Shown here piece after piece: positions 1-64,000 of a stretch of 64,000 bases of DNA (positions are counted from its first letter, which is position 1; each line of letters opens with the position of its first letter). Under the pieces are notes generated by a model. That model worked only from the letters and a program-made list of their open reading frames with translations, had not been told where the DNA came from and did not search any database. The DNA is from Mesorhizobium sp. M4B.F.Ca.ET.058.02.1.1 (GTDB lineage: Bacteria > Pseudomonadota > Alphaproteobacteria > Rhizobiales > Rhizobiaceae). The position numbers and the translations under genes were made by a program. The DNA lies in contig NZ_CP034450.1 in NCBI RefSeq assembly GCF_003952505.1, positions 1,860,001 to 1,924,000 of the forward strand, given 5' to 3'.

Positions 1-1
1 C

Positions 2-10076: not shown

Positions 10077-10381
10077 TGCAAGTTCCACTGCCTTGGTCGC
10101 CGGCTGACCGCTATATCGTCCTATCGCCCAGCCAGAGGATCGCCCGGGATATTCTCTGGGTCGACCATCAGATCAATCCCAGGCTACCGATCCTGAGATT
10201 CTTCGGTCGGGTCGATTCGCTCCGCGGCTATCGCAACATGCCGGTCCTGACCCTGGATCCTCATCTCGAGTTCCGCCAGAGAGACCGTGACGAGCTCAAC
10301 ATCCTGTTCGCCTATAGCAACATCCGGAGCTGGAAGTCCGAAGACTTCCAGCATCTCAAGGATCTCAGTGGATCAAATTGA
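10076..10381 (+). CDS. Hypothetical protein, 101 aa
   Basis: Basic protein with PWSPADRYIVLSPSQRIARD and FRQRDRDELNILFAYSN; no family recognised. It is the last plus-strand gene of this block and runs tail-to-tail into the virion RNA polymerase gene, overlapping its 3' end by 17 bp, with no bidirectional terminator in between. Confidence 0.65.
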   Translation: MQVPLPWSPADRYIVLSPSQRIARDILWVDHQINPRLPILRFFGRVDSLRGYRNMPVLTLDPHLEFRQRDRDELNILFAYSNIRSWKSEDFQHLKDLSGSN

Positions 10382-16300: not shown

Positions 16301-19300
16301 CCGACAAATCCTGGCCCTGATCCCCGGCGTTCTCGTAACGAGCCAGGGTGAGTAGGGAATGGATTCCATGCGGCTTGAGCTTTGCCGCCTGCAGCAGCTC
16401 GAGCGTGCTGGCCGGAATAGGACCCTTCTTGTCGAGCCAGATCTTGAGCTCTTGAACCAGGGGACGAAGTTCACCGCCCTCGGTCATGGCCGTCTTGATG
16501 ACAGCCTTGACGACGTCAGCCCGGATTGCCTTCTCAGGCTTGACCCCGGTCTGGTCAGCAATACCCTGGCCGATCGTCATCAGGAACTTGCCGAAATCCG
16601 ATTCAGAAGGATCCCGTAGATCCAGCTTGGTTCCGGTCGGCATGAAGACCTCACGGGCGAGCTTGTCGGCCTGCGGGTTGGAAAGACCAGCCATTTGCAG
16701 GCGGCCCAGCTTGTTGACGTGGTGCTTGTAGTAGGTCGGCGCATTCTCGCCGTGCCGTTTCACCGCGGCCATCTGCTTGGCGACGTTGTTGAACGAGTTC
16801 ACCAGCTGGCGCTGCAGACCCTTGACCGATTCCCAGTGGGCCTTGTTGAGGCCCATCTCGGTATGCTTGCGGTCGAGATCGCCCTTCTTGTAGGGGCGCT
16901 CGCTGAGCAGCGAGACGAAGGCTTCCTCGCCCAGGGCCTGGACGAAGTCAAACACATCATGGTTCGGGAAGTAGGGGGTCTTCTGGACATTGGCCAGCGC
17001 CTGCTTCTGCTGGTCCGTGGTCTTGACCGTCGGATTGCGCAGCTGGGTGCCGTCGACTTCCGTCACCGGTTCGCCGATCGAGTAGCTTTCGATCTCCTTG
17101 GTCTTGAAGGCCAGGTCGGCAAGCAGCTCGTGGGCGCCATCCAGGCTCTTGATCAGCGCCTTGACGTCACTGGTTCGGACATCGAACCAGACGCGGCCGA
17201 ACTCCTTGTTGGAGACGGCCGGGAATTTTTCCATTCCCAACTTGATCAGGCCAGCAGCCTCGAGCCCGTGCAAGAGTTCGGCCGCAACACCTTCCGGGAT
17301 ACCGCGGGTGAAATCTTCTTTGACTTCACGATTGGCTTCGACGCCCCAGAATTTGCGGACATGCTCAGCCAGGGTACGCTTCGCAATGTCGACAGAGGTG
17401 CCGCGGTTGAAAGCGGTCACCATGTCATCGCTGACATCCTGTTCATCGATGCCCATAAAGCGGGCGACATCGCCCCTCTGAAGCTCTACCGATCGGTCAG
17501 CCAGGTTGAGCGCCCAGTCAAGAGCAGCGATAACTGCCGTCTGCATCAACTGGGGGTCATAATCCTCCATGTTCTTTTCGAGCAGGTTGAGGACCCGGGT
17601 CTCTTTCCAGCGCGTGACTTCAGTGCCAGCCTCCATTTTGGCCTTCAGGCCGTCTTCCGCCATCTTGGCATCGAGGCGGTCGTACATGTGGCTGAGCGCC
17701 TTATTGCCCAGAACCAGGAGACGCTGGAAACCCTTGAGATCATCGGCCGTGATCTTGCTCACGTCGAGACCTTCCGCGAAACCGGACACAGCACGAAGGC
17801 TGCCCAGCATACGGTAGAATGCCCGGAGCGGTGCTTCAGTCAGGTCGAGCATCCGGGAGTTGATCGTCTTCGGCAGCCGGAACGCTTCATGGAACCGGTT
17901 GCGGCCTTTCGGCTGAACCAGGTTGGGGAATGCCTCGGCCATCGTCAGAGCCGGGCCGGTGTCTTCCGTGGCTTCGACAAGATCCAGGACCCGGCGATCG
18001 GCAATCTGTTGTGCCGTCGGGGCTTCGGCCGGAAAAGCGTCAGCGCTTTCTTCGGGTTGGGTCTGCTGAGGAACCGTCTCGGCAACGGGTTCCGCGTCCA
18101 CCTCGACAGGAGCCTCTACAGGCTCAACCTTCACAGTTTCTGCGACCGGCTCCTCGACAACAGGAGCAGGCTCGCTCACTTCCTGAGTTGACGACTTCTC
18201 AGTCTCACCGGTAGATTCCGTCTTGCTGACCTCTTCCGCAGGGGTTTCTTGGCGGACATCCCTGGCGGGCTGAGCAGGCGGAAGGGGAAGCTCCACCTTC
18301 GCATTGTTGGTCTCTGACGTGGTAGCCGGAGATTTGACAGGTGCAGGTGTCGAGCTTCCCCTGTTTTCATCCAAATTCAGAGCCGGGATCTCGAGCTCGG
18401 GGATGCCGAACTCCGGATATTGCTTGGCGATGTCGTTGGCCAGCTGGCTCGTTGCCAGTGCCTCGGCATGGACCTTGCGGGCGAAACGCTCGGAGCCGGC
18501 ATTGCCGACACGCACACCAACCTTGTGGTAGCCATCGGCCGGCAGGAACTTGTCATCTGGACCCAGTGCCGAATAGGCCACGTTCTGCCCGTCGCCATTG
18601 GCGATCGAGGTGTTGAGCGCCACGACCTTGTTGCGCATCGAGCGAGCGAACAGCGCCAGCCGCTGAGCCTTGCGGCGAGCAGTCTGGACATCACCCTGGG
18701 CGATGGCCTGGTTGATGCCGGCGACATGATCCCGGAGCGAGGTCTGGTGACCCTTGACGCCGCCATCGGTCTCGATCTGGCGGCCGACGAAGTTCATCCG
18801 CTCGTCATGCGCCTCGGTGAGCTTGAGCTCGTCCTGGAGATCCTGCGCCTGGTTCTCGACCGGGCCAGCCTCGGGAAGCCGGTTGCGAGCCTCATAGAGC
18901 CGTGCCGAGTTGAGCAGCGAGGTTGCGCTGCGGATCACGCGCTTCTGCTCCGGGGTGAGCTGGATGGTGCCCTCATCCGCCTGGAACAGGACCTGCTCGG
19001 CGACATTCGGGTTGACCGCCTGCGGAGCGACCTGAGCCACGTTGACCAGGTTGGAGACGATCTGGTGGCCCTGCTCGGAATTCATGTCGACCTGGGAGAG
19101 ATCCTGGTCGGGCATCTGCATCTTTTCGCTGGCCCACTCGATGGCCTGCTTGACCTGCGGAACCTGAGCGATCTCCTGCAGGATACCGGCGTAGCTCTGG
19201 AAGCGCTGGAAGTCCTCGCTGTCATGCGAGACCTTGTCCATGAACTCGGGGAAATCCTCGAGGAACAGCTTCTTGTTGTCCTGGACGGCCTTCAGCACGA

Positions 19301-28207: not shown

Positions 28208-29419
28208 TTAGATCGGAGCCACGCACTTGATGAGGCCGATGCGCTCCGAACGCTTGACCAGGATACCGTAGTACCACTTGATCGAGCTGAAGCCGGTCTC
28301 GCCATACGGGTCGTTGCGGTCGGCAGTTTCCTTGCCGGGCATCTTGGTCAGGACCGAGAACTTCACGGTCTTGCCGTCCGTCTGGAAGCCGATCGTCGAG
28401 AACGAGTCGTCGCCGACGACGAGCATCGGGTAGACGTCGTAGTGATCGGTGCCGCCGACATTCGACTCACGGTAGCCGAGGTTGGCCGTGACAGCGGCGC
28501 CGGCGCCTGCCCAGCGCAGCATCTCCGGAACCTGGACGATGCGGAAAGCATCGACGGTGCCGATTTCGCCGTTCAGGATCGTGCCGGCATCGCCGTAGTG
28601 CTGGACCGCGATGAAGGCCTTCTCGTTGAACTGGTCCTTCATGCCCTTGACGACGGGAACCAGTTCCGAGCCGATGAACATGACGCGAGCCGACGGCAGG
28701 GTCTTGGTGTCGACCAGGCGGGAGCCGGTGATCACCTTGGTCTGCTTCGGCGTGCGGTTGTCCGTCAGGATCTGGTCCAGACGCATCAGGTTGGCATAGC
28801 TCACGACCGAAGGCGTTGCACCCTCGCCCGTAACCGTGGCCGGGGAGACCGCGTCACCGGCATAGAGGATGACACCGGCAGCAGCCAGCAGATCCTTCTG
28901 GAGCACGGCTTCGGTCAGCTGCACGGCACCGTTCATGAGCTCGCGGCTCAGGTGGTCCATCACGCCGTCGTCCGAGTCGAAGTCGATCGACTCCGCGGTG
29001 AACTCGGTGAAGAAGCCGAACTTGGAGATCGAGCCTTCACGGCTCAGACGGGTGAAGCCGACGCGGTTGACGCGGCCGCCGTTCTCGGTGAGGACGGGCA
29101 GCTTCGACGTGATGGTGCCGATGTCCTTGGACGAGCCATAGAGGTTGCCGTTGGCGATCGTGGCGCCCGAGGCATCGATGCCCTGGTCGTTGATGTTGCG
29201 ATCGTCGAGCAGCGGGACGTACTCATAGACCTTGATGGTCTTGCCGTAGTGCTTCGGCATGTTGACGGTCGAAGCGAGCGGCATGAAATACTGCTCTTTG
29301 CGTGCTTCGATCAGGGCCTTCTTCAGCCAGAAGAAGGTCTGCATCTGGTTGGAACCAGCGCCGTCGATGCCGGAGGCGGTGCCGCCGGCGACCTGGGTGG
29401 GGGCGTTGTAATTCAGCAT
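28208..29419 (-). CDS. Major capsid protein, N4 gp56 family
   Basis: A 403-residue HK97-fold capsid protein matching the N4-gp56 family in length and sequence. Recognisable blocks are [20 protein letters not shown] near the N-terminus, [20 protein letters not shown], and [13 protein letters not shown] helix [20 protein letters not shown]. It is flanked by a scaffold-like gene upstream and a strong terminator downstream, the usual arrangement for a protein needed in large amounts. No cleavable delta domain is obvious. Confidence 0.95.
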
Positions 29420-31205: not shown

Positions 31206-33491
31206 TTAGATAATCGGTGCCCCTGCCAGGTTCGAACCAGAGCCAAGGGGATCACTCTTGCTCTTGCTGACGGCGTTCCAGCCGACAGCTGCTTCGATGT
31301 CGGGATCGGACTCACCGCCATTGGCCTGCTTCTTCGGCTTGACCAGCGCCTTGGTGATCTCCAGATCCTGGTTGCCCTCGGCCTGTCCACGCTGCTTTTC
31401 CATCTCCCGGGCGTGCGTGGTGCCGGTCTCCTGCTCGACGGTGTTGAGAGCGCCCTGCTCTGCCTTGACCATCTCGGACCGGGCCTTGGCCTGGTTGAGC
31501 TCGATGTCGGACTGCAGCTTCTCGATCTCCTTCTGCTCCTTGGCGATCTGCAGCTGCATGAGCTGCTGCTGCATTGGATCAGGCTTCGGCTCGAACTTCT
31601 CGATCTGGTGCTGCAGCTCAGGCATGCGCTTCAGCCGGGCGATCTCGACCAGGATCATCTTGGTGACGTTGAAGTCCATATTGTTGCCCATGGTCTGGAG
31701 CATGAACGCCAGGTCCTGGGCCTTGTTGTTGTCGATCTCGGCGGTGGAGATGTCGACCTTGAGGTCGAAGTCGCCGGCCAGGTCCTCACGCTTAATGGTG
31801 AGGAAATCCTTCTCGTCGTCGAGCGGCGGACCGCCATTGTGGCCGATGCCAACCGGAGGACGGTTGGTCACCCGGATCACTTCCTTGTCCGACAGGAAGA
31901 TGGCGTTCATCGCGATGATCTTGCGGCCGATCTGGGTCAGGCCGGAAGCCAGGCGCCGGAGGATCGCCATCTCGCGCTTGGCCGCGGCATCGAGAATTCC
32001 CCGGATGCCGGCGGCGACGTCGCCATAGGCATTGCCGGAAAGACCGCCCGAGAACGCCTTGACGCCGGTCAGCGCTTCGGCTTCCTGGTTCTGCATCTGC
32101 AGCATGGCCAGGGCCGACTGCGGGATCTCGGGATACTTGTGCTCGATGATGCCCTGGGTCGGATTGATGGTCGGGTTGAACTCGTAATCCTGGCCATTCT
32201 CGTAGCGCCGGCGGTTCAGCACATCGAGCATACCCTTGGCGAAACCCTGCTGGCCGTTGGCCGAGCGAGCCATGAGGTCGATCATGCCACGGGAGACGGC
32301 GCCCAGGATCTTCTGGTTGTCCTCCAGCAGCTCGGCATCCGACTCGCCCATCACCTGGCGCTTGATCGGCATGTAAGGCGCCACGACGAAGGGATGCTTC
32401 CCATCCGGGAAGGGATTCTCTTCCATGCGGATCAGCGTGTTGCCGATCCAGGTGGCGACGATCTGCACCATCTCGCCGGTGCCGTGGACATCGTAGGGAC
32501 CCCAATATTCGTAGGCCACGATGCGCTTGCGCATTGCGTCGGTGAAGTTGAAGTTGGTGTCGCTCGACAGCGGAGTGTGGTTGGGCTCTGAGGCCACCGA
32601 AGCAGCGGCCGATTCCCAGTTGACGAACTCCAGATTCTTGTAGCGGCCCGGCTCTTTCTTCAGCTCGGCCTTCGAGGTTTCGAACGAGATGACGACGAAG
32701 CCGGCTTTCTCCAGATCATCGCCGCAGGACGGATCGTAGTAGAAGTTCTCCGGGTTGATGATGCCCAGCGTCGGCCGGTTCTCGATGACCTTCTGGACCT
32801 TGACCTTCTGAGTCCCGGTCTTGACGGCGACAGTGACCTGGCCAGTCTCCTCGTAATAGTCGAGGGCGGCCTTGAGCTCTTCAGGCGCCTGCTGGTTGAA
32901 GGTGTTCGGATCTTCCTGCTTGAACGCCAGGCCCTGCTGGAAGAGGTCGATATCCTGCTGGTTCTGGGGAGCCAGGTGATCGTAGACCGGGGCATCCTCC
33001 TCGACCTCGATCGTCTTGCGGCACCAGCCGACACGCACGATCGCCGTACCCTCGTCGACATTGGCCCGGACGTAGTTGTCGATGAAGCTGACCCGGTTGA
33101 GCTTGGTGCGGAACTGCCAGTTGAGCAGCAGCTCGTTCTGGCGGGCAGCCGGACCGTCTTCGAAGGTCACCGGGCTGACGTCGAACAGCTTCTCCGACGA
33201 GTTGAACGGCTCGGTCAGCGCCGAGTAGCGCCACTCTGCCTGCCGGCGGATCAGCTTCGGCTGGACCTGGGAACGGCCCTTGATCTTAGGCGGCTTGGAC
33301 GAACCAGAGACCTCATTGAGCTCCCGCCACTTCTTGACCTTCAGGACGAACGTGTCGTGTGCCGGCCGGGATGCCTCGAGGTCGCCCTGCAGGATTCTGA
33401 CGTTGGGCTCATTCGGCCAAGTGGTCAGCTTGGGAGCCTCGGACCCATTGAACTGCATGGTGTTGGGATCTTCGGCCTCGGCCATTTTCAT
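31206..33491 (-). CDS. Portal protein, N4 gp59 type
   Basis: A 761-residue portal, the same size as N4 gp59. Typical podophage portal segments are seen: KKWRELNEVSGSSKPPKIKG, RRQAEWRYSALTEPFNSSEK, VRANVDEGTAIVRVGWCRKT and NPENFYYDPSCGDDLEKAGF, followed by AYEYWGPYDVHGTGEM. Near residue 550 there is GIGHNGGPPLDD, a short motif common in alphaproteobacterial phage proteins and also found in the terminase of this window. The C-terminal ~200 residues are a Gln/Glu-rich coil (barrel/crown) and a low-complexity tail. It forms the DNA gate at the capsid vertex. Confidence 0.93.
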   Translation of the reverse strand: MKMAEAEDPNTMQFNGSEAPKLTTWPNEPNVRILQGDLEASRPAHDTFVLKVKKWRELNEVSGSSKPPKIKGRSQVQPKLIRRQAEWRYSALTEPFNSSEKLFDVSPVTFEDGPAARQNELLLNWQFRTKLNRVSFIDNYVRANVDEGTAIVRVGWCRKTIEVEEDAPVYDHLAPQNQQDIDLFQQGLAFKQEDPNTFNQQAPEELKAALDYYEETGQVTVAVKTGTQKVKVQKVIENRPTLGIINPENFYYDPSCGDDLEKAGFVVISFETSKAELKKEPGRYKNLEFVNWESAAASVASEPNHTPLSSDTNFNFTDAMRKRIVAYEYWGPYDVHGTGEMVQIVATWIGNTLIRMEENPFPDGKHPFVVAPYMPIKRQVMGESDAELLEDNQKILGAVSRGMIDLMARSANGQQGFAKGMLDVLNRRRYENGQDYEFNPTINPTQGIIEHKYPEIPQSALAMLQMQNQEAEALTGVKAFSGGLSGNAYGDVAAGIRGILDAAAKREMAILRRLASGLTQIGRKIIAMNAIFLSDKEVIRVTNRPPVGIGHNGGPPLDDEKDFLTIKREDLAGDFDLKVDISTAEIDNNKAQDLAFMLQTMGNNMDFNVTKMILVEIARLKRMPELQHQIEKFEPKPDPMQQQLMQLQIAKEQKEIEKLQSDIELNQAKARSEMVKAEQGALNTVEQETGTTHAREMEKQRGQAEGNQDLEITKALVKPKKQANGGESDPDIEAAVGWNAVSKSKSDPLGSGSNLAGAPII

Positions 33492-41661: not shown

Positions 41662-41688
41662 TATTAATCGCCTTTAAAAATCAGATAA

Positions 41689-43313
41689 TCAAACGACATA
41701 AGAGGAAAGCGCGCTGGGCTCTTCGACGATCTCGTCGTCGTTCCAAGTCGGTCCGCCATTGTGCCCTCCCCGAGGACAGGCGCCTGTTCGCTTGGCTTCC
41801 ACGCGTTCATGTACATTAGCATAGAAATCGTATCGAGGCAGTCGTCTTTTCCCTTGAGACCATTTTTGGTGGCCATCCGGATTTGTTGATAAAAATGCCC
41901 CATGATTTTCGAGGATTTCAACTCGGTCGGGAAATACATCTTCCCGGACTTGAACAGCGGCACGACCAGGTTGAAGCGGGCGAGCTTGTTGATCAGCGGC
42001 CGGATGCCGGGGTCGCCGGACTTTTCCGATGAGGCGAAGTTGAACCAGATGTTCCTGGTCAGCATCTCGGCCTGCAGCCACTTGATGAACGCCTTCTGCT
42101 GGCCGGACACTTCGATGCCCACCGACTGCGGCCGGTACATCTGAACCAGCTGGAAGAGCTTGTTGATCGACACGTCCATGGTCGTGCGCTCGCAGAAGCC
42201 GTCGACCCAGAACCAATCGCCATTGGCGTTGTAGGCCCAGACCGAGATCACCGAGAAGTCGGCCGTCTGCTTGTCGGAGGTGGCGAAGTCGGTGGTGATG
42301 TAGAAGTTGAACTGGCTCTGGCGCTCGAGCAGCTGGATGCGGGAGAACTCCCGGATCTCCTTGTCCTGGACCAGGCGTTCCTCGTCGGACGAGATGCGGA
42401 GCATGAGCTCCTGCATGAAGCCCTCGACCTTGCCATTCAGCACCGCATCTTCGTATTGCTTGACGATGAAGTCGTAGGTGAAGCGATCCTCCCAGGCGCC
42501 GCGGAATTCCTCGCGCGTGCAGGGGAAGCGCTCGCACACCGGCCAGACGTTGACGTCCCAGGCACCCGACTCGACAGCCTCGATGAGGATGTCTTCGTTG
42601 TTGAACGGCGTGCCGTTGAAGACGATCTTGCGACGGACCGGGTCGAGCGCGTAGTTGATACCCTTGTGGACCGTGTCCTTGATCGCCTGCATCGAGGCCT
42701 TGGACTTGGCGTCATCGTCGGAGACCAGGTCATCGAGCACCGCCAGCTTCGGGCGCTTGCCGAAGATCTTGGTGCCGCGGATACCGGTCTTGGCACCAAA
42801 CATCTTGATGCCGAAGCGTTTACCTTCCTTGTTGGTGAACTCGATATAGTTGTCGGTGAAGTGCGCCTCGGGCAGCCACTCCTTCAGGAAGTCACTGTTA
42901 TCATAGCGGAATTCGAGGTTCTTACGCGCCGACTTGACACCGTTGTCCATCGAGTCGGAGACGTAGATCATGCTGTCCAGCTCGCCGAATCCCGGCAGGT
43001 ACTGGAAGATGGCGAGGAACGGAGCCAGGTATTCGAAGAACAGCGTGGTCTTGGCGGCGCCACGGAAACACAGGTTGGCGACGTTGCCGGTCGAGCTGGC
43101 CAGCTTGTCGAGCATCTTGAGATGCACCGGCGGCGTCTTGTGGCTCTCACCCTCGGCGCCATTCACCAGCTTGATGAAGTTCATGAACACCAGGCTGAAG
43201 TCCGCCGGCACGTAGGATCCGTCGTTGAGCCAGGTGTAATCGACCTCGTCCAGCCACTCGTCGAGCGACTTCTTGATGACCTCGCGGCCCGAGAGCTCCA
43301 GCCGATTAGACAT
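41689..43313 (-). CDS. Terminase large subunit, N4 gp68 type, C-terminal frame break
   Basis: DNA-packaging motor with ATPase and nuclease halves, about 541 residues. ATPase: NLCFRGAAKTTLFFEYLAPF (Walker A variant GAAKT) and KLAVLDDLVSDDD (Walker B). Nuclease: YITTDFATSDKQTADFSV and GKDDCLDTISML carry the acidic metal ligands. Frame zero ends in a poor tail (stop at 41664). In the -1 frame after codon 515 the sequence GGHNGGPTWNDDEIVEEP runs to a stop at 41689, matching the HNGGP motif in the portal, so the real C-terminus is most likely that one. The junction is GGGG (41768-41771). No small subunit is certain. Confidence 0.9.
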
Positions 43314-54414: not shown

Positions 54415-54794
54415 GCCTGGTCTTTGTCTTTGGCTCCAACACATCCGGCCGGCACGGCAAAGGCGCTGCGCTGGCCGCCAGGCGCTACCACGGCGCTGTC
54501 TATGGCGTCGCCAAGGGCATGACGGGCAACAGCTACGCCCTGCCCACCTGCAACGATTACTTCCAGCCTCTATCGCTCGATCTCATCAAGGACGAGGTGG
54601 AAGACTTCCTGGGCTTCGCCGCTGTCAATCCGCAGCTGGGCTTCCAGGTAACCCGAATCGGCTGCGGCCTCGCCTATTACAAGGACGAGGACATTGCTCC
54701 GATGTTCCGCCAGGCGCCGCAATTCAACGTCTTCTTCGACGAGAAATGGAGGCCGTTCCTCGGGAACGGGTATGACTATTGGGGGAGCTTCTAA
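54411..54794 (+). CDS. A1S_2505-family phage protein (macro-like)
   Basis: A 127-residue protein matching the A1S_2505 phage non-structural family: VFVFGSNTSGRHGKGAALAA, GVAKGMTGNSYALPTCND, FQVTRIGCGLAYYKDEDIAP. The G-x-N/S and GAAL loops and the G-C-G-L-A-x-Y motif resemble macro-type ADP-ribose-binding folds; that similarity is inferred from motif spacing. It closes the operon that begins with NADAR and is followed by a terminator. Function unproven; ADP-ribose handling is a reasonable hypothesis. Confidence 0.75.
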   Translation: MSLVFVFGSNTSGRHGKGAALAARRYHGAVYGVAKGMTGNSYALPTCNDYFQPLSLDLIKDEVEDFLGFAAVNPQLGFQVTRIGCGLAYYKDEDIAPMFRQAPQFNVFFDEKWRPFLGNGYDYWGSF

Positions 54795-54841
54795 GCCTGA
54801 TTCTAAAGGTCCTGGGCATCGCCCTGGCCATCACCAGAGAA

Positions 54842-54870
54842 AGGTCGCTGAGAAATCAGCGGCCTTTTTT
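54842..54870 (+). terminator. Strong terminator before RNAPII gene
   Basis: 10-bp stem with one G-T pair (54842-54851 with 54856-54865), GAAA tetraloop, then TTTTT. Confidence 0.9.
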
Positions 54871-54907
54871 GCATCTCCCTTCTGCTACCACAACAAGGAG
54901 ACCATTC

Positions 54908-55780
54908 ATGTTTCAACTGCTCAGACAAGCCGAGATCGGCCCGGAACCAGAGGGCATGGACACCTCCCGAGCGCTCGAGTTCCAGATCGAGATCGAGAAG
55001 CTCTTCCACAAGAACCAGCTCTTCCCGCGGATCAAGGGCGAGTTCACCAACTGCAAGGAGTTCGACTTCGAGAAGCACATGCGGGCCAACAGCATCGAGC
55101 CGGAGTTCGGATTCGATCTCCTGGTTCAGATGGTCCTCAACAAGCGAGCGCCGTTACAGACCCTGGTGGGCGCCCTGCGCAAGCATTTCGACGGCGACTG
55201 CCAGAAGACCGCCGACGAGCTCGTCAAGGCTGTGTCGGCCGACCTGGTCGACTGGAGCCCTGTCGCTCGCCAGTTCGTCGTGCGCTACGGCATCTCGCCC
55301 GACATCCAGGAGGATCTCGATCGCTACCAGTATCCGCTACCGATGGTGGTCAAGCCAAAGGAGCTGACCTGCAACCGCTCCAGCGGCTACTACACCGGCA
55401 AGGATTCGGTCATCCTGCGCCACAACCACCATGAGCTCGACGTCTGTCTGGACCACCTCAATGCGGTCAACAAGACCAAGTTCAAGGTGAACCAGCAGGT
55501 GGCAACCACCGTCAAAAACCGCTGGCGCAACCTCGACAAGCCCAAGCCCGACGAGGAAGCCGGCGAATACCAGAAGCGGGTCAAGGCGTTCGAGAAGTTC
55601 AACAACTCGGCTTTTGATGTGATGCACCATCTTGGTTTGGCTGCTGAAGGTGAATTTTATTTCACCCATAAAGTGGACAAACGGGGCCGCACATACTGTC
55701 AAGGCTACGTTTGCAACTATCAGGGCAATGCGTGGCAAAAAGCCATGATCGAATTCGCAAACCAGGAGGTTACCGAGTGA
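54908..55780 (+). CDS. RNA polymerase II small subunit, N4 p4 (gp15) type
   Basis: A 290-residue N-terminal half of a T7-like RNA polymerase, comparable to N4 gp15. The C-terminal part holds the template/initiation motif THKVDKRGRTYCQGYVCNYQ (DxxGR), preceded by KFKVNQQVATTVKNRWRNL. Motifs A-C are absent here and are in the gene at 57810. The subunits must join to form the middle-gene polymerase. Start ATG 54908 has AAGGAG. The last ~55 codons (from about 55612) are markedly more AT-rich than the rest and end in EFANQEVTE, a sequence repeated in diverged form after the homing endonuclease gene, showing the 3' end was replaced on insertion. Confidence 0.92.
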   Translation: MFQLLRQAEIGPEPEGMDTSRALEFQIEIEKLFHKNQLFPRIKGEFTNCKEFDFEKHMRANSIEPEFGFDLLVQMVLNKRAPLQTLVGALRKHFDGDCQKTADELVKAVSADLVDWSPVARQFVVRYGISPDIQEDLDRYQYPLPMVVKPKELTCNRSSGYYTGKDSVILRHNHHELDVCLDHLNAVNKTKFKVNQQVATTVKNRWRNLDKPKPDEEAGEYQKRVKAFEKFNNSAFDVMHHLGLAAEGEFYFTHKVDKRGRTYCQGYVCNYQGNAWQKAMIEFANQEVTE

Positions 55781-57512: not shown

Positions 57513-57781
57513 CCCACGTTGATATCGACGTCGACATCTGGCGTGACGGCCGAAATGTTCACGGCCTATTCGACAATGGGTTGCTTCGGGACAGCTACCC
57601 TTACATCGACTATTCGGGAACCAAGTTCCTGAAGGACCAGGTCTCTCTGAAGAACATCCTCTTCGAAACCTTCGAGCCCGACTTCAACGGGCTCTACCCG
57701 TTCATGCTGCGGAACCGCTTCGTCTTCTTCCAGACCAAGGAGGATGCCGAGCTATTCCGCGGCCTGCTCTACATCTATTAA
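57509..57781 (+). CDS. Hypothetical protein, 90 aa
   Basis: MTHVDIDVDIWRDGRNVHGL, NILFETFEPDFNGLYPFMLR, FVFFQTKEDAELFRGLLYIY. The last segment resembles the beta-alpha ending of small phage proteins. Lies 28 bp before the RNAPII large-subunit start. Unknown. Confidence 0.62.
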   Translation: MTHVDIDVDIWRDGRNVHGLFDNGLLRDSYPYIDYSGTKFLKDQVSLKNILFETFEPDFNGLYPFMLRNRFVFFQTKEDAELFRGLLYIY

Positions 57782-57809
57782 TCCCCATCCAATCAAGGAG
57801 CGCTACCAC

Positions 57810-59012
57810 ATGTTCCAACAGTTCACCGGCAAGGAATACCTCAAGATCGATATCGCCGGCAGCTTCGGCTACGACAAGCAGGACTGGGACGATCGCATCG
57901 GCTGGTTCGACCAAAACGAGCATCAGCTCCATGCCCTGGTTCCCCAAGCTGAGGAGCCCGCTCTCTTCTACGCCGGCGTCCTGGCCTGGGAGAAGGCCAA
58001 GGAGGGCAAGGCTTCCGGCTATCCGATCTCGCTCGATGCCACCTGCTCGGGCATCCAGATCCTCGCCTGTCTCGCCGGCGATCGCAGGGCAGCCGAGATC
58101 ACCAATGTCGTCGACACCGGCCATCGCCGGGATGCTTACGTCTCGATCTACCAGGACATGGTCAACGAGCTCGGCGAGACGGCCAAGATCGACCGCAAGC
58201 AGACCAAGCTCGCGATCATGACCCACTTCTACAACTCAGCGGCGATCCCGAAGCAGATCTTCGGCGAGGGCCAGCTGCTCGGCCTGTTCCACGACAAGGT
58301 TAACGAGAATGCCCCGGGAGCCAATGAGATCACCAACACCATGCTGGCGATCTGGGACCCGACGGCGCTCGTCAACGAATGGGTGCTGCCCGACAACTTC
58401 CATGTCCACATCAAGGTCATGGGCTCGGTCACCGAGGCCGTGCAGTTCCTCAACGAGCCGTTCGACATCACCTACAATGTCAACATGCCGATCAAGGGCG
58501 GCCGCTCTCTGGGCGCCAACATGGTTCACTCCATCGACGGCATGGTGGTCAGGGAGATGCAGCGCCGGTGTCACTACGACCCGGCGAAGATCGAACAGCT
58601 CACCAAGCTGCTCAATGCCGGTGCTGCCGGCAGGAACACCCACAGGCCGCAGGACAAGCTGGTGATGGCCCTCCTGGATCATTACCGTGCCTCCGGCTTC
58701 CTGTCGGCCCGCATCCTCGAGCTGCTCGACCTGGAGAACCTGGGCCATATCCCCCATGCCCTGGTTCGCAACCTGATCGCATCCCTGCCTGAGAAGCCCT
58801 TCGAGGTGATCTCGGTGCATGACTGCTTCAGGTGCCTGCCCAACTATGGCAACGACCTTCGCCGGCAGTACAACAACCTGCTGGCGGAAATAGCGGAGTC
58901 GAATCTGCTCGGCTTCATCGTCTCGCAGATGGTCGGCAAGCCGATCCAGATCAACAAGCTGGATCCTCACCTGGCGCACGACATCCGCAACACCAACTAT
59001 GCTCTATCCTGA
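57810..59012 (+). CDS. RNA polymerase II large subunit, N4 p7 (gp16) type
   Basis: A 400-residue catalytic half of a T7-like RNA polymerase (N4 gp16 has about 404). Motif A is PISLDATCSGIQILACLAGD, motif B DRKQTKLAIMTHFYNSAAIP (the R..K......Y of T7-type enzymes) and motif C VISVHDCFRCLPN. It needs the small subunit at 54908 for the TxxGR motif. ATG 57810 has AAGGAG; both subunits begin MFQ after a similar leader. In N4 the genes are adjacent; here about 2 kb separates them. Followed by a terminator. Confidence 0.93.
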   Translation: MFQQFTGKEYLKIDIAGSFGYDKQDWDDRIGWFDQNEHQLHALVPQAEEPALFYAGVLAWEKAKEGKASGYPISLDATCSGIQILACLAGDRRAAEITNVVDTGHRRDAYVSIYQDMVNELGETAKIDRKQTKLAIMTHFYNSAAIPKQIFGEGQLLGLFHDKVNENAPGANEITNTMLAIWDPTALVNEWVLPDNFHVHIKVMGSVTEAVQFLNEPFDITYNVNMPIKGGRSLGANMVHSIDGMVVREMQRRCHYDPAKIEQLTKLLNAGAAGRNTHRPQDKLVMALLDHYRASGFLSARILELLDLENLGHIPHALVRNLIASLPEKPFEVISVHDCFRCLPNYGNDLRRQYNNLLAEIAESNLLGFIVSQMVGKPIQINKLDPHLAHDIRNTNYALS

Positions 59013-59090: not shown

Positions 59091-59579
59091 ATGAGCAATT
59101 TCAACATCGGCCTCAGTGCCGACAACAAGACGGTCTACGTCACCCGCGGCGGTGATGCTCTGCCCGGCGGCGCAACCAATGTGCTGACCGATTTCGTGCA
59201 TGACGACACTGCCGACGTCGTCGACGCCAACCCGGAGAACCACGTCCTCTTCCATCACGTCCAGGAAGCCCTCTACCATGCGGGAATCCTCGACATGCAG
59301 TCGGTCTCGATCGTCGTCAGCGGCGCTCTTGCGGCCGAGTATCTGTCGGCTGCGGCCGTCACTGTCGCCGATCCGGGCACCGTTCCCATCGTGATCAAAT
59401 ACCAGCCGGCCAACGTCAATGCCGCCAACGCCGACTTCAACTTCGTCTCGGCCAATCCGGCTGTCGCCACGGTCAGTGCTGCCGGCGTCGTTACCGGTGT
59501 CGCCAATGGCTCGACCACGGTCACGGCGACCGAGAAGGGTGGCACCAAATCGGTGGTCGTTGCCGTCACCATCACTTAA
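59091..59579 (+). CDS. Ig-like (Big_2) domain protein
   Basis: A 162-residue protein. The first ~85 residues are a separate N-terminal domain (MSNFNIGLSADNKTVYVTRG, HVQEALYHAGILDMQSVSIV). The second half is a bacterial Ig-like group 2 fold: FNFVSANPAVATVSAAGVVT, GVANGSTTVTATEKGG. Such domains usually decorate capsids or tails, yet this gene lies among middle genes far from the structural block. GGAAAAGATAGAC precedes the ATG. Surface or decoration protein is inferred. Confidence 0.8.
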   Translation: MSNFNIGLSADNKTVYVTRGGDALPGGATNVLTDFVHDDTADVVDANPENHVLFHHVQEALYHAGILDMQSVSIVVSGALAAEYLSAAAVTVADPGTVPIVIKYQPANVNAANADFNFVSANPAVATVSAAGVVTGVANGSTTVTATEKGGTKSVVVAVTIT

Positions 59580-59705: not shown

Positions 59706-60341
59706 ATGTCGGAAACAATGACCTACATGACCGATACCCAAAGGGTGGAGCTCTCGCTCCCTGTTCACATCATGCTGAGCGTGCTCGTCTCTGGCGCCAA
59801 CTGCGCCGAACCAGCAGGCAGACCGACAGACATCAGTCCGGCCGGCGTCGAGAACTGGAAGGCCCAGTGGCACCAGTTCAACGAGCGCCTGGGCAAGGAC
59901 CCGATCTTCCAGAAGTCCTATCAGACTTTCAGGAAAACCCGGGAGTTGCTCGTCGCTGCCTGCTCTGAAGCGCTCGCCGGCGTCTATCCGGAGAAGAAGG
60001 AAATGTCGCTTCTCCGGCGCATCGAGCGCATCCATACCGAGATCGTCGAGCCTTACGTCAAGGCCGACAATCCCGATCCGCGGAAGATAGGCATCATTGC
60101 CTTCTACCTGCTCCAGCACCTGGTCGAGACCCGGACGATCATCGTCCCCGAGGACAGCTCCTTCGGCAAGGCTCTCGAGTTCATGCTGCCGGCGCTCTCC
60201 CCATGGGAGGGATCCACCGAGCAGGAGATCCAGGACTACGAAGCGCTGAACAGGTCGGCACAGAAGCAGGTCCGCAAGATCCTCCTCCATCTGCAGCAAG
60301 AAGGGTATTATAAATATATCCCTATACCATTAGCTGCATAA
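59706..60341 (+). CDS. Middle protein of unknown function, 211 aa
   Basis: A helical protein with MSETMTYMTDTQRVELSLPV, VENWKAQWHQFNERLGKDPI and a long helical core. No catalytic motif. The protein ends at 60341, just before an AT-rich gap with GATAATC/GATTATC elements. It is the last gene before the foreign-looking region. A role with RNAPII, as N4 gp1/gp2 have, is possible but unsupported by motifs. Confidence 0.66.
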   Translation: MSETMTYMTDTQRVELSLPVHIMLSVLVSGANCAEPAGRPTDISPAGVENWKAQWHQFNERLGKDPIFQKSYQTFRKTRELLVAACSEALAGVYPEKKEMSLLRRIERIHTEIVEPYVKADNPDPRKIGIIAFYLLQHLVETRTIIVPEDSSFGKALEFMLPALSPWEGSTEQEIQDYEALNRSAQKQVRKILLHLQQEGYYKYIPIPLAA

Positions 60342-60373: not shown

Positions 60374-61204
60374 ATGGACATCCAGACCCTCATCGACAAG
60401 ACGGCTGCCGGCAACCGGGAGACATACGAGCTGACGAAGGAAAACTTCGAGGCTCTACTCGCCCGGGCCGTCGAGCTGCAGAACCAGCTGAAGCAGACCC
60501 CCACCCCCGCTGTCGCCATCCCAGAGACAACACGCGATCTGGAGGCGGCTGGCCTAGAGGCCGCCTGCAAAGCGATGTGCAAGCCATCTGGCCTCTCTGC
60601 GTGGCAGAACAACATGCCATACGCCGAAGCCGCCATCCGCGCCTATCTCGCCTCCTCCTCGGCAGCACCATCAGGAGAGGCGGAGCCGGTGGGCGAAACG
60701 GCAGACCTGATCGAGCGGCTGCAAGACTGGATGCGCGAGCCGGACTTTTCCGACGAGTTCAGCGTTGAAGATATCACCGACTGGATAAACCGCCGGCCGA
60801 CACACATTGCGCCGAAGTTGGCCGCTCGCCTCACCGCCATGCAGGCGGAAGTGGAAGCGTGCCAGCGCAAGTCAGAGGCATATCTGAAAAGCGGAAACCT
60901 CGCCATCGATGACGTTGCTCGGCTGCAGGCAGAACTGGACGCGGCGAAGGCGGTGATAGCCAATCTGCGGATGATCGTGGACGTCTACTCAGAGGCCAGA
61001 GACGCCCGCGCCGAAGCCCTCACCGCTGCTACCGCAGTAGCGGTGCCGGGGATGGTGCTGGTGCCGAGAGAGCCGACACTGGAAATGTACAATGCGGCCT
61101 ACTCTTGGTTCGGCTCAAGCCGTTTCAATTTCGGCGAAATGTACCGAGCCGCCCTCGCCGCATCCCCCTCCGCACAGACAGATGGAGGGCGGGATGGCCG
61201 GTGA
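60374..61204 (+). CDS. Prophage-type protein of unknown function, 276 aa
   Basis: A mosaic protein: helical start MDIQTLIDKTAAGNRETYEL, an Ala/Cys segment LEAAGLEAACKAMCKPSGLS, a coiled coil (MQAEVEACQRKSEAYLKS and RLQAELDAAKAVIANL) and a C-terminal module VLVPREPTLEMYNAAYSWFG typical of Rhizobiales prophage small proteins. The tail AALAASPSAQTDGG is also typical of such modules. GC and codon use differ from the phage core. AAGGGATTATCTG precedes the ATG. The gene ends 4 bp from the oppositely oriented regulator. Function unknown; likely acquired. Confidence 0.7.
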   Translation: MDIQTLIDKTAAGNRETYELTKENFEALLARAVELQNQLKQTPTPAVAIPETTRDLEAAGLEAACKAMCKPSGLSAWQNNMPYAEAAIRAYLASSSAAPSGEAEPVGETADLIERLQDWMREPDFSDEFSVEDITDWINRRPTHIAPKLAARLTAMQAEVEACQRKSEAYLKSGNLAIDDVARLQAELDAAKAVIANLRMIVDVYSEARDARAEALTAATAVAVPGMVLVPREPTLEMYNAAYSWFGSSRFNFGEMYRAALAASPSAQTDGGRDGR

Positions 61205-61207
61205 GCG

Positions 61208-61408
61208 CTATTCTTTGATGATGCGCTGCCTGCGCTTGATCTCGCGTTCGATAGCCTCGCGGATCATATCCAGGCGCGGCTCATCCTTTGCCAGAACGGC
61301 ATCGATCCTCGCCGTCATGCCCTCGGCAAGTGGCAAGCGGAGTTGCTCTGTCCATTCTTTCTTTCGTCCCACACGGCGCTGGATATCGTGTTCCTGAATT
61401 TGTAGCAA
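61208..61408 (-). CDS. Ribbon-helix-helix-like regulator
   Basis: A 66-residue protein on the minus strand with a ribbon-helix-helix pattern: RKKEWTEQLRLPLAEGMTAR forms the strand and first helix, IDAVLAKDEPRLDMIREAIE the turn and second helix. The ATG at 61447 lies upstream of the likely -10 box (61438-61443), so I prefer TTG 61408, which has AAGG at 6 bases. A divergent gene and a perfect 12-bp inverted repeat lie just upstream. It could act as the repressor of that region, near the integrase gene; not proven. Confidence 0.62.
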   Translation of the reverse strand: MLQIQEHDIQRRVGRKKEWTEQLRLPLAEGMTARIDAVLAKDEPRLDMIREAIEREIKRRQRIIKE

Positions 61409-61437
61409 GTCGCACCTTTTTCGTGTACACGCTATTG

Positions 61438-61466
61438 CATATATCATGTACCTGATATAAATTCAA
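61438..61466 (-). promoter_or_regulatory. Predicted sigma-70-type promoter for the regulator
   Basis: On the minus strand TTGAAT (61466-61461), 17-bp spacer, TATATG (61443-61438). Overlaps the inverted repeat, so the regulator could control itself. Confidence 0.6.
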
Positions 61467-61477
61467 TCAGGTACATG
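61445..61477. promoter_or_regulatory. 12-bp perfect inverted repeat, probable operator
   Basis: CATGTACCTGAT (61445-61456), 9-bp spacer, ATCAGGTACATG (61466-61477). Lies between the divergent regulator and the gene at 61496. A weaker rightward TTGCAT / TATAAA pair (61435 and 61456) also overlaps it. Confidence 0.72.
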
Positions 61478-61495
61478 AAACGGAGACCGATAGAA

Positions 61496-61804
61496 ATGGC
61501 AACGGATATGGTGGACCGAATTTTGGGGCCTCGCACGGTAGCCTCCGCCATGGAGGGAATTCGCAATTGGGATCGCCGCGCGGGTTCGATGCCTCTCCTT
61601 TCCGAGCAGCTTTCCTTGATGAAGGACGGGGCTCAAACGTGGTCTACAACGCATTCTTGGCCCGCCGTCAGAGACGCGATGACTAGGCTTGGCCTTGTGC
61701 TGGCACTGGAGCCGCTGCGCGATGACGGCTTCATTTTTCCGAGAACCGAGATCACCGAACTTGGCCGCGAGGTTCGCGCCGAACTCACTGGAGGGCGGGG
61801 ATGA
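61496..61804 (+). CDS. Hypothetical protein divergent from regulator, 102 aa
   Basis: MATDMVDRILGPRTVASAME, RNWDRRAGSMPLLSEQLSLM: helical, mixed charge. ATG 61496 has CGGAGA at 9 bases; ATG 61475 lies inside the operator arm and lacks a site. No family. Its position opposite the regulator is that of a gene under direct control. Could be a lysogeny-related protein. A short 41-codon frame at 61801-61926 follows with an ATGA overlap but does not look coding-like. Confidence 0.6.
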   Translation: MATDMVDRILGPRTVASAMEGIRNWDRRAGSMPLLSEQLSLMKDGAQTWSTTHSWPAVRDAMTRLGLVLALEPLRDDGFIFPRTEITELGREVRAELTGGRG

Positions 61805-61846
61805 GCGCGCCTCTGAAAATGTCCCGCGAAGAGATGGAGAGTGGGG

Positions 61847-62035
61847 ATGAATCGCGAAATTCTCATCATTGTCCGCGATATCCTGCAGGCAGGGAAATGT
61901 GCCGTTTCAAAGGAAAGCAGCGATGAATATGTCGCCGCTGCCGCCTTCGTTTTTGATGAGGGACTGTTCTTCTTCCGCGATGAAGCGCTGAAAATTGTTG
62001 AGGCAGAACTCGCGGAGCCCTCCAATGCCCTCTAA
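61847..62035 (+). CDS. Hypothetical protein, 62 aa
   Basis: MNREILIIVRDILQAGKCAV, SSDEYVAAAAFVFDEGLFFF: alpha/beta. GGAGAGTGGGG precedes ATG 61847. Overlaps the next gene by 11 bp. Unknown. Confidence 0.58.
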   Translation: MNREILIIVRDILQAGKCAVSKESSDEYVAAAAFVFDEGLFFFRDEALKIVEAELAEPSNAL

Positions 62036-62363
62036 CCCCGGCCAGGAGCGGGCCATGCCCGATGTAGAGCGAATTGCGGCCGAGTTGCGGGCGATCATCG
62101 ACCACGACGCATCACTTGGTTTGAAGCCGCCGCTGCACGCCGAAATCCGCGCTCTTCTAGACGAACTGGCACGTCAAGGCGAGGCGTTGAAGCTGGCGAG
62201 GGAGGCGCTGGACGCAATGGTTCACGCCGTGTGCGGTGAATCTGGCTTTGCGAATGCTGTCCGAGTGAACAGCGGTTTTGCTTATCCGTGGCCAGCGCTG
62301 GATGAGGCGGAGGCTTTGGCAATAGAAGTGATCATGGAGAAGACCGATGAAAAATACCGTTAA
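62025..62363 (+). CDS. Hypothetical protein, 112 aa
   Basis: MPSNPGQERAMPDVERIAAE, then a helical stretch EIRALLDELARQGEALKLAR and a C-terminal ALDEAEALAIEVI. Overlaps the following gene by 17 bp. No family. Acquired-type gene. Confidence 0.58.
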   Translation: MPSNPGQERAMPDVERIAAELRAIIDHDASLGLKPPLHAEIRALLDELARQGEALKLAREALDAMVHAVCGESGFANAVRVNSGFAYPWPALDEAEALAIEVIMEKTDEKYR

Positions 62364-62757
62364 GTTCGACGCCGTTCTCGACATGAACGACCCGCAGTTT
62401 GCGGAGAAGCTTCGCGCGGCCATTGGCGCCGAACCGGGCGAGCCCATCGAAGTCAGAACGCCTCAGTTTGACCGAACGGACGGGCTGACAGTTCCGAAGC
62501 CTATCATGGACTTCGCCAAGCTGCCCGCTCTTTTTGAGGAAACCCTCAAACAGATCGGTTGTCAGAAATGGGACGAGCCCGACAAGGAAGGCAACGTTCT
62601 CTGGCTCTACCCGGCCGAATGGTACGACCACATTCCAGAAGGCCACGTCATGCGCTGCATCGACGGGCATGACTATCCGTTCAGGCATGGCGAGACTGAC
62701 AACGACATGCGCTTCGGCGCTCTCGCTTACGGTTTCCTGAGAAAGGCAGCGCCATGA
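62347..62757 (+). CDS. Hypothetical protein, 136 aa
   Basis: MKNTVKFDAVLDMNDPQFAE, LKQIGCQKWDEPDKEGNVLW, HVMRCIDGHDYPFRHGETDN. Contains LYPAEWYDHIPEGH, a pattern also seen in small phage/plasmid proteins. Its stop overlaps the next tiny ORF (ATGA). Unknown function. Confidence 0.65.
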   Translation: MKNTVKFDAVLDMNDPQFAEKLRAAIGAEPGEPIEVRTPQFDRTDGLTVPKPIMDFAKLPALFEETLKQIGCQKWDEPDKEGNVLWLYPAEWYDHIPEGHVMRCIDGHDYPFRHGETDNDMRFGALAYGFLRKAAP

Positions 62758-62807
62758 CCGTCACCCGCGCCGCCCGCGCCTTCCTCTCTACACTGGAGGG
62801 GAAGTAA
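62754..62807 (+). CDS. Tiny ORF, 17 aa
   Basis: MTVTRAARAFLSTLEGK, coupled on both sides (ATGA, TAATG). A GGAGG-like TGGAGGGG near its end serves the next gene. May be a leader or translation-coupling ORF rather than a functional protein. Confidence 0.35.
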   Translation: MTVTRAARAFLSTLEGK

Positions 62808-62980
62808 TGGTCACCCGCCCGACCCAGAAGATGGTCGATGAAGCCACCCTGGCGCTGTTCAACCACAACAGCGACCAGGCGCTTCAGTCATCCATCGAGC
62901 TGCAACTGGTTACCCGGCCAACCAAGGAGGTTGTCAAGAACCTCCGGGCATGGGCCGATTATCTGGAGGAGCGATCGTGA
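62807..62980 (+). CDS. Small helical protein, 57 aa
   Basis: MVTRPTQKMVDEATLALFNH, then NSDQALQSSIELQLVTRPTK and a helical, basic end. GGAGGGGAAGTA precedes the ATG. Stop overlaps the next GTG (GTGA). Unknown. Confidence 0.55.
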   Translation: MVTRPTQKMVDEATLALFNHNSDQALQSSIELQLVTRPTKEVVKNLRAWADYLEERS

Positions 62981-63207
62981 CCCGATCGCTCGCCATCTCT
63001 CAGCGCCAGGTGCAATCCCTGATTCGGGCAGCCGAAGCAGAGAAAGCCATCGTGGAAGTCAAGGTCGGAAATGCAATTTACCGACTTATCCCCAAATCTC
63101 GGGCAGATGAATCGAAAGACGCTCTTGACGAGGACTCTTCGCCGGCGGCCTTTAAGACCTTCGAGGAATATCAGGCCTGGAGGGATAGCCGTGCTGGTAA
63201 AGATTAA
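62977..63207 (+). CDS. Small protein before integrase, possible excisionase-type, 76 aa
   Basis: GTG 62977 overlaps the upstream stop. VTRSLAISQRQVQSLIRAAE, IVEVKVGNAIYRLIPKSRAD: a short helix-turn-helix-like unit followed by a beta strand, then an acidic tail. Such small basic proteins often precede integrases as excision or direction factors, but the sequence does not match a known one. Overlaps the integrase by 17 bp. Confidence 0.55.
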   Translation: MTRSLAISQRQVQSLIRAAEAEKAIVEVKVGNAIYRLIPKSRADESKDALDEDSSPAAFKTFEEYQAWRDSRAGKD

Positions 63208-64000
63208 GGGCATCCACAAAGTCAAGATGACGCTCGCCGACGGATCCAAGGAGACCTACTACTACGCCTGGCGTGGCGGACCCAGGATGAAGGAGAAGCC
63301 GCATACCGAAGCTTTCTCCCGGGAGCATGCCCGTCTCAGGGAGAAGGCCGCCGAGACGGTCAAGGTGATCCTCACCCTGGATCATCTGATCGAGCACTTC
63401 ACCGGGCCGGAGCATCAGCGCAATCCCGACTTCCTGGTTCTCGCCGAGAGCACCAGGGTCGATCATCTCTATGCCTACAAGCTGGTTCGAAAGCACTGGC
63501 CGGAATGTCCCCTCGCCTTCACCCAGGCGAAGGGATTCAAGGGCGATATTCGCAAGTGGCATCGCTCCATGCGAGCCAATCCACGCAAGGCCGACAAGGC
63601 ACTGTTCTCGCTGTCCAAGGCGTTCTCCTACGCCATCGAGACCGAGTATCAGGGCATCGAGAAGAACCCATGCACCGGCATCAACCGGCTCTACGAGGGA
63701 TCCAGAAAGGAATTCCTCTGGACCCAGGAGCAGATAGAACTGGCTCGCGCAAAGCTTGAGCCGCATCTGCTGCTGCCTTTCGAGATCGCTCTCGCCACCG
63801 GCCAGCGCCAGGGTGACATCCTCGCCATGAGCTGGAAGCAGTGGGACGGCAAATACCTGCAGTTCGCCCAGTCGAAGACGGGCAAGAAGCTCAAGGTGCT
63901 GGCCAACACCCGCATCAAGACCATGCTCGACACCCTGCTGCCGGCCAACAAGGACAAGCTGCGGATCTGCCTCAACTCCCGCGGCCGTCCGTGGACCAAG
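63191..64000 (+). CDS. int: Tyrosine recombinase (integrase), cut by right edge
   Basis: Open to the end of the window (270 codons). GTG 63191 with GGAGGG at 7 bases. The N-terminal part KIKGIHKVKMTLADGSKETY with YYAWRGGPRMKEKPH matches arm-type binding domains. A SAM-like core-binding region (TLDHLIEHF through KAFSYAIETEYQGIEKNP) follows. The catalytic domain begins FLWTQEQIELARAKLEPHLL, then the first catalytic Arg in FEIALATGQRQGDILAMSW. The HxxR and Tyr motifs lie outside. It would integrate phage DNA into the host chromosome, rare among N4-like phages. No attachment site is seen inside the window. Confidence 0.93.
   Translation, partial: MLVKIKGIHKVKMTLADGSKETYYYAWRGGPRMKEKPHTEAFSREHARLREKAAETVKVILTLDHLIEHFTGPEHQRNPDFLVLAESTRVDHLYAYKLVRKHWPECPLAFTQAKGFKGDIRKWHRSMRANPRKADKALFSLSKAFSYAIETEYQGIEKNPCTGINRLYEGSRKEFLWTQEQIELARAKLEPHLLLPFEIALATGQRQGDILAMSWKQWDGKYLQFAQSKTGKKLKVLANTRIKTMLDTLLPANKDKLRICLNSRGRPWTK

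Follow-up and report, generated by a model that had tools for sequence, protein, structure and literature searches.

N4-like viruses (Schitoviridae) were regarded as strictly lytic, according to the study in which Zheng et al. (2023; PMC10654107) described, in silico, 40 integrated N4-like proviruses, mainly of Moraxella, and 54 genomes with lysogeny genes. The criteria for the family include, in the part of PMC7650795 that sets them out, a linear genome of 59-80 kb with defined ends and podovirus morphology. We analyzed a 64,000-nucleotide stretch (the window) of the chromosome of Mesorhizobium sp. M4B.F.Ca.ET.058.02.1.1 (contig NZ_CP034450.1, positions 1,860,001-1,924,000). Judged from its sequence, the element that fills it is very probably a 76.8-kb N4-like prophage at a tRNA-Arg(TCT) gene of this rhizobial chromosome, and it belongs to a lineage that keeps a tyrosine-integrase module.

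Like the proviruses of Zheng et al., which come mainly from Moraxella, the element is N4-like, has lysogeny genes, and resides in a bacterial contig. Integrated N4-like proviruses are already known, and what is added here is firmer evidence and an example from a complete genome. In the retrieved main text of PMC10654107, the terms "attL," "attachment site," "integration site," and "permut" do not occur, and the passages of PMC8224337, PMC10386132, and PMC10783043 that we retrieved contain no N4-like prophage. In the open literature, judged largely from listings, we recognized no mapping of attachment (att) sites of N4-like prophages.

An N4-like element in the chromosome

Coordinates refer to the window unless marked chr (chromosome) or L002, which is a 104-kb stretch of the same chromosome comprising the window and 20 kb on each side. 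The window is part of a single chromosome contig of 6,461,656 bp, and its N4-like genes are therefore chromosomal and do not come from a phage contig. Between the att positions, the element spans chr 1,847,630-1,924,385, i.e., 76,756 bp, a length within the Schitoviridae genome-size criterion (PMC7650795).

The first-pass annotation, made from the window alone, had recognized in it the hallmark genes of an N4-like phage, and a comparison with PHROGs bore this out. The core genes matched were those for the virion RNA polymerase (RNAP; matched over its length), portal, capsid, terminase, primase, DNA polymerase, and single-stranded DNA-binding protein; two further N4-type RNA polymerases and an N4-type ATPase were also matched. 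Those placed in the window are as follows.

1..1876, plus strand: DNA polymerase, C-terminal part, the gene starting left of the window (PHROGs)
3376..6099, plus strand: primase (phrog_2135)
7495..8241, plus strand: single-stranded DNA-binding protein (phrog_743)
10365..20882, minus strand: virion RNA polymerase, 3505 amino acids (phrog_2206)
28208..29419, minus strand: major capsid protein (phrog_1357)
31206..33491, minus strand: portal protein (phrog_1216)
41664..43313, minus strand: terminase large subunit (phrog_38)
54779..55780, plus strand: N4-type RNA polymerase, RNAP1-like (phrog_2166)
57744..59012, plus strand: N4-type RNA polymerase, RNAP2-like (phrog_2051)

The guanine-plus-cytosine (GC) content is 58.7% in the prophage and 65% in both host flanks.

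The integrase and its attachment site

The tyrosine recombinase noticed at 63191, running off the window, turned out to be complete, and it is preceded by a small conserved gene.

63191..64000, plus strand: tyrosine integrase, the first 270 of its 352 codons; it ends at 64249, chr 1,924,249 (PF00589, PHROGs, alignment)
62977..63207, plus strand: small conserved gene immediately upstream of the integrase; the open reading frame (ORF) is listed from 62950, and the conserved start is at about 62977 (comparison)

Read from a GTG at 63191 (an alternative ATG lies at 63071), the integrase has a complete length of 352 amino acids, and its PF00589 score of 45.5 bits exceeds the cut-off of 27.1. Past 64000, where they were to be sought, it has the HxxR and Tyr motifs, and a tRNA-Arg attachment core comes after them. 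An alignment with 20 relatives shows the catalytic residues R206, K229, H294, R297, H320, and Y333 to be present.

A distance of 87 bp separates the stop codon of the integrase from the 3' end of a tRNA-Arg(TCT) gene on the minus strand (chr 1,924,337-1,924,413), the 49-bp 3' half of which forms attR as the attachment core. The integrase being intact and the prophage lying beside a tRNA gene, we conclude that members of this branch of N4-like phages are able to lie dormant in their host, or were until recently. That the enzyme resolves genome multimers or moves other DNA, in a role unrelated to lysogeny, was raised as a general possibility in the first-pass annotation; we found nothing further in its favor, and it is scarcely plausible, given that the integrase and the att core stand at the junction of chromosome and phage by the target tRNA, as they do in related integrative elements.

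One such element, 64 kb long, is found in the congener G002, where this integrase (73%) likewise adjoins the tRNA and the 3' half of the tRNA recurs as a 49-bp repeat at the two ends (contig positions 66-114 and 64,151-64,199). The sequence just inside the left repeat corresponds to L002 7609-7961 of our chromosome, which lies outside the window on its left; this match of the phage-side arm therefore places the left end of the prophage at chr 1,847,630 and gives the length of 76,756 bp. The tRNA core was found after the integrase, within 8 mismatches, in 11 of 20 IMG/VR loci with related integrases, some of the others being too short to show it. By eye, CTGTAAA-type motifs are repeated in both phage att arms.

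Other elements that carry an integrase of this family (IMG/VR records, Rhizobium phage RHph_N28_2, and the G002 island) differ from the prophage in that, in the stretches read, their DNA matches it only around the integrase and att. Their integrases are mostly 53-73% identical to ours; many have the tRNA-Arg core and several the small upstream gene. Among ten large ORFs of the G002 element there is no listed virion gene, and the element resembles a defense-type island. The small gene, which is conserved in N4-like and other elements and lies upstream in several of the loci with related integrases, is a possible directionality factor; the first-pass annotation had spoken of a possible excisionase-type gene. 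It had no family match in Pfam or PHROGs, and the predicted structure of its product is weak (predicted local distance difference test score, 62).

The left junction

The left host flank consists of the end of an ABC-transporter permease operon and an SDR gene. In five of eight congeners (G001, G003, G004, G007, and G008), the permease end lies on the contig of the tRNA, 3.2-6.9 kb away from it; in G002 it is on a different contig from the tRNA, and in G005 and G006 no such match was found. The prophage has host DNA on both sides, namely, the tRNA-Arg gene with the right flank and, on the left, a flank tied to the same tRNA in congeners.

The junction itself (L002 7609-7635) reads GAGCACCGGC-CTGGTAG-GCCG and continues into the phage arm. 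Its phage side starts at the core crossover, and on its host side 12 bp repeat the tRNA half-site in inverted orientation, a sequence that within the 104-kb stretch is found otherwise only in the tRNA. The overlaps mismatch, with CTGGTAG on the left versus TTAGAAG at attR. We infer that this junction arose by integrase-mediated recombination with a secondary site or by a later deletion. Because the left crossover joins a noncanonical site, excision of this copy is probably impaired.

We lean, by a little, toward a refinement of the prophage reading, in which the lineage is temperate and this particular copy has been locked in ever since its left crossover joined the secondary site. The half-site copy on the host side, the phage side starting from the core crossover, and the lack of a 49-bp core copy on the left all speak for it. 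Against it, the N4 core genes examined are full-length, so that decay of this copy has yet to begin, and excision could still occur at a low frequency despite the mismatched overlap.

Gene order compared with that of a virulent relative

The N4 core and its order are alike in Rhizobium phage RHph_X2_28B (Xoxocotlavirus), which matches 35 of 89 query ORFs, a set that was picked by a codon-usage heuristic and includes some doubtful ORFs. Its portal is 63.4% identical to ours and that of Sinorhizobium phage ort11 (Huelvavirus), likened by its portal alone, is 63.6% identical; the best among 500 phage records with a portal match are rhizobial Schitoviridae. The order in RHph_X2_28B is RNAP1, RNAP2, two small genes, an Ig-like gene, a beta-glucanase gene, small genes, the ATPase gene, and the metallopeptidase gene onward. 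The prophage departs from it after the first of the following features.

59091..59579, plus strand: Ig-like (Big_2) protein, the last gene before the order breaks relative to RHph_X2_28B (Pfam, gene-order comparison)
59706..60341, plus strand: 211-amino-acid ORF, kept in the second provirus described below, G413 (68%; comparison with G413)
60374..62757, plus strand: accessory genes separating the core from the integration module; they are absent from that place in the G413 provirus (comparison)

Thus, one end of the prophage has the Ig-like gene, the 211-amino-acid ORF, the accessory genes, the small gene, the integrase, and attR, and the ATPase block opens the other end. RHph_X2_28B, in contrast, has no match to the integrase, the small gene, or the XRE-type gene of the prophage and carries the beta-glucanase and small genes at the place of the module. 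Relative to the virion map of RHph_X2_28B, the prophage order is circularly permuted and opens at the integrase. Since the circle opens there, inside the virion map, the order argues against a phage contig fused at virion ends. A phage contig fused to host DNA was rejected on account of this permutation and of the linkage of the left flank to the same tRNA in congeners. By gene order, the virion genome ends would be expected near 46-48.5 kb of the window.

A second provirus with the same module

From L002 8289 to the integrase stop, our prophage is collinear with the record IMG/VR UViG_2706794523_000001 (G413; 73,302 bp), in which 60 of the 89 query ORFs have a match; the portal of G413 is 77% and its integrase 82% identical to ours. 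The integrase, the small gene, and the N4 core are thus found in one collinear record, which starts too late to show attL. The G413 integrase shares 351 of its 352 residues with P0122, which is named as an integrase from Mesorhizobium sp. LSJC255A00 and has a longest contig of 475,396 bp. Between our prophage and G413, the ratio of nonsynonymous to synonymous substitution rates (dN/dS) is 0.156 for the integrase, at a dS of 0.80, and 0.188-0.266 for eight other genes, the small upstream gene included; a dS of 0.4-0.9 makes these values rough. Set beside the core genes, the integrase has therefore been retained and has diverged along with them. In a tree the two N4-like integrases pair as sisters with a support of 91/88, which is under the star level of the tool.

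Related portals are found elsewhere in Mesorhizobium, namely, P0002 (79%; 108,681-bp contig), P0004 (76%; 153,248 bp), and P0014 of M. yinganensis (69%; 727,017 bp). Portal P0007 (70%) and integrase P0193 (63%) come from the same sources, with a longest contig of 76,769 bp for both, and possibly represent a further N4-like phage with this integrase family.

An assembly chimera, a fusion of two prophages, or the 60-64 kb part being a piece of another element can hardly be credited. The integrase family and the small upstream gene do occur on non-N4 elements at the same tRNA, as such an origin would have it, but the element opens at the integrase within the virion map, G413 holds the integrase, the small gene, and the N4 core collinearly, and the GC content is similar throughout the prophage. 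The first-pass annotation had described 60374-64000 as different in composition. This did not hold: the segment has a GC content of 59.0%, compared with 58.7% in the prophage (z, 0.13), and takes 7th place among 47 windows in tetranucleotide distance to the rest of the prophage; by both measures, the 60-64 kb part was rejected as a compositionally distinct segment. The genes at 60.4-62.8 kb, taken for prophage cargo, are accessory and do not occur at that place in G413, but their GC content is like that of the prophage. A PADLOC search for defense genes among seven ORFs, four of them from 60.4-62.8 kb, matched none.

We consider it distinctly improbable that a virulent phage gained the integrase by illegitimate recombination, integrated once, and came to a dead end. 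Such a capture would agree with the lack of overlap between the best 25 of 89 phage records with a similar integrase and the best 40 of 500 with an N4-like portal, and with the presence of a PF00589 integrase in 3 of 22 IMG/VR N4-like records of at least 68 kb (80 of 594 loci kept). It is at odds with the same module being found in the second provirus under purifying selection at a dS of about 0.8, with the complete att arms, and with several other N4-like prophages whose integrases adjoin tRNA genes.

Evidence for and against a temperate lineage

Taken together, the intact integrase, the tRNA-Arg core, the left-flank linkage, the permuted order, and the second provirus support the earlier proposal of a temperate or formerly temperate N4-like lineage. 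Several observations weigh against it. attL and attR do not form a direct repeat, the canonical 49-bp attL core being absent from this genome; no near-identical second copy of this core was found elsewhere in the genome, and exact 14-mer repeats gave no attL. The tRNA region has 10 matches in the genome; one is the locus itself, and the other 9 extend over tRNA-sized stretches at an identity of 75-81%. In the congener G012, DNA left of the tRNA matches our chromosome at 1.52, 1.54, 1.74, and 1.96 Mb, and the left side of the locus is therefore variable; pre-tRNA DNA of G001 has a weak match at 2,068 kb. The lineage is also rare: of the species representatives, 146 for the genus and 394 for the family, our genome alone has it, and a portal-only scan of genome contigs (18 stretches) gave no relative. 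Lastly, no repressor of lytic genes could be confidently assigned in the prophage.

Proposed mechanism and regulatory genes

After injection, the linear genome would circularize at the virion ends. The integrase, encoded downstream of the RNAP2 gene on the same strand, would then recombine the tRNA gene, in the region of its anticodon loop, with attP, which would lie between the integrase and the small XRE-type gene, and integration would set the early RNA-polymerase block apart from that for replication. Transcription from the early promoters of N4 depends on a polymerase that enters the cell with the virion. In part, this requirement probably keeps the prophage silent, and a repressor may help. 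This raises the question of how a prophage restarts when its first polymerase normally arrives within the virion. A search for virion-polymerase promoters as hairpins with 3-nucleotide loops gave four with a stem of at least 6 in our stretch, none in that of G413, and nothing conserved; promoter scans gave scores near the shuffle level.

The best candidate for the repressor, albeit a weak one, is the XRE-type protein on the attL side (83 amino acids; L002 7741-7992), whose HTH_3 score of 23.3 barely passes the cut-off of 23.0. It was matched only in G002 (54%), with no match in the 20 IMG/VR integrase loci or in G413, the record of which may start too late. Another set of regulatory features had been noticed among the accessory genes.

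61208..61447, minus strand: ribbon-helix-helix-like ORF (by eye only)
61475..61804, plus strand: divergent 109-amino-acid ORF (comparison)
61444..61478, no strand: perfect 13-bp inverted repeat, operator-like, with arms 61444-61456 and 61466-61478, between the divergent ORFs (sequence)

The divergent gene and the operator-like repeat are indeed there, the repeat overlapping the start of the 109-amino-acid ORF. The proposed ribbon-helix-helix regulator exists as an ORF and resembles one by eye, but belongs to no family that we could match, with nothing found in Pfam or PHROGs up to an E value of 0.1. It had no match in G413, which led us to reject the pair as a conserved lysogeny switch; the 109-amino-acid ORF has a 66% homologue in G413 at a different place (62092-62358 of that record).

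N4-like prophages in other bacteria

Scanning GTDB contigs with a portal profile yielded 25 loci, and 17 genomes were taken further. A listed integrase was found on the contig of the portal in at least 5 of the 17, and in all five of those contigs the integrase domain lies at most 0.8 kb from a tRNA gene. Beyond the other end of the element, four of the five have a direct repeat of the tRNA sequence.

Dyella sp. ASV21: tRNA direct repeat of 16 bp
Alteromonas sp. BMJM2: tRNA direct repeat of 30 bp
Burkholderiaceae metagenome-assembled genome: tRNA direct repeat of 50 bp
Xenophilus sp. Marseille-Q4582: tRNA direct repeat of 46 bp, bounding only 43 kb and so a remnant

For Marinobacterium litorale, whose element is cut off by the end of the contig, no such repeat was found. 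At a threshold of 1e-5, nothing in the stretches read of these five contigs matched our integrase. With a complete lysogen genome and its mapped tRNA-Arg site, the provirus attributable to LSJC255A00, and these prophages bounded by tRNA repeats, N4 lysogeny becomes testable in isolates rather than in metagenomes.

The integrase slot follows RNAP2 in our genome, G413, and Dyella; it lies between the ATPase and metallopeptidase genes in Xenophilus, between the metallopeptidase or deaminase gene and the thymidylate synthase gene in G562 and G569, and beyond the DNA polymerase gene in Alteromonas, Burkholderiaceae, and Marinobacterium. By the order of RHph_X2_28B, all nine slots fall between RNAP2 and primase, the primase being outside the stretches read for Marinobacterium, G562, and G569. 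We tentatively suggest, while thinking it rather less than an even chance, that N4-like lysogeny is recurrent and has been acquired repeatedly. Differing integrase modules would have entered at no fewer than four places, all of them between RNAP2 and primase in the RHph_X2_28B order, and integration would sever the early polymerase block from that for replication or divide the latter; with early promoters awaiting a virion-borne polymerase, such prophages would be silent by default, and the host polymerase would have to restart them on induction. If true, the restart of an N4-like prophage by the host polymerase would be a way not described for other temperate phages.

The portal matches of two of these prophages span in-frame TAA codons, two in that of Marinobacterium (G419:C16 82864-84999) and one in that of Alteromonas (G422:C65 49349-51430), possibly reflecting end effects or decay. 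Several N4-like contigs of about 70-75 kb (among L055-L079) are binned to unlikely hosts (Anaerolineales, an archaeon, and Lachnospiraceae) and are probably phage contamination of the bins. In the plasmid record NZ_CP110465.1 (Acinetobacter baumannii; 75,126 bp), an N4-like portal (46.8%) is annotated as the chromosome partitioning protein ParB.

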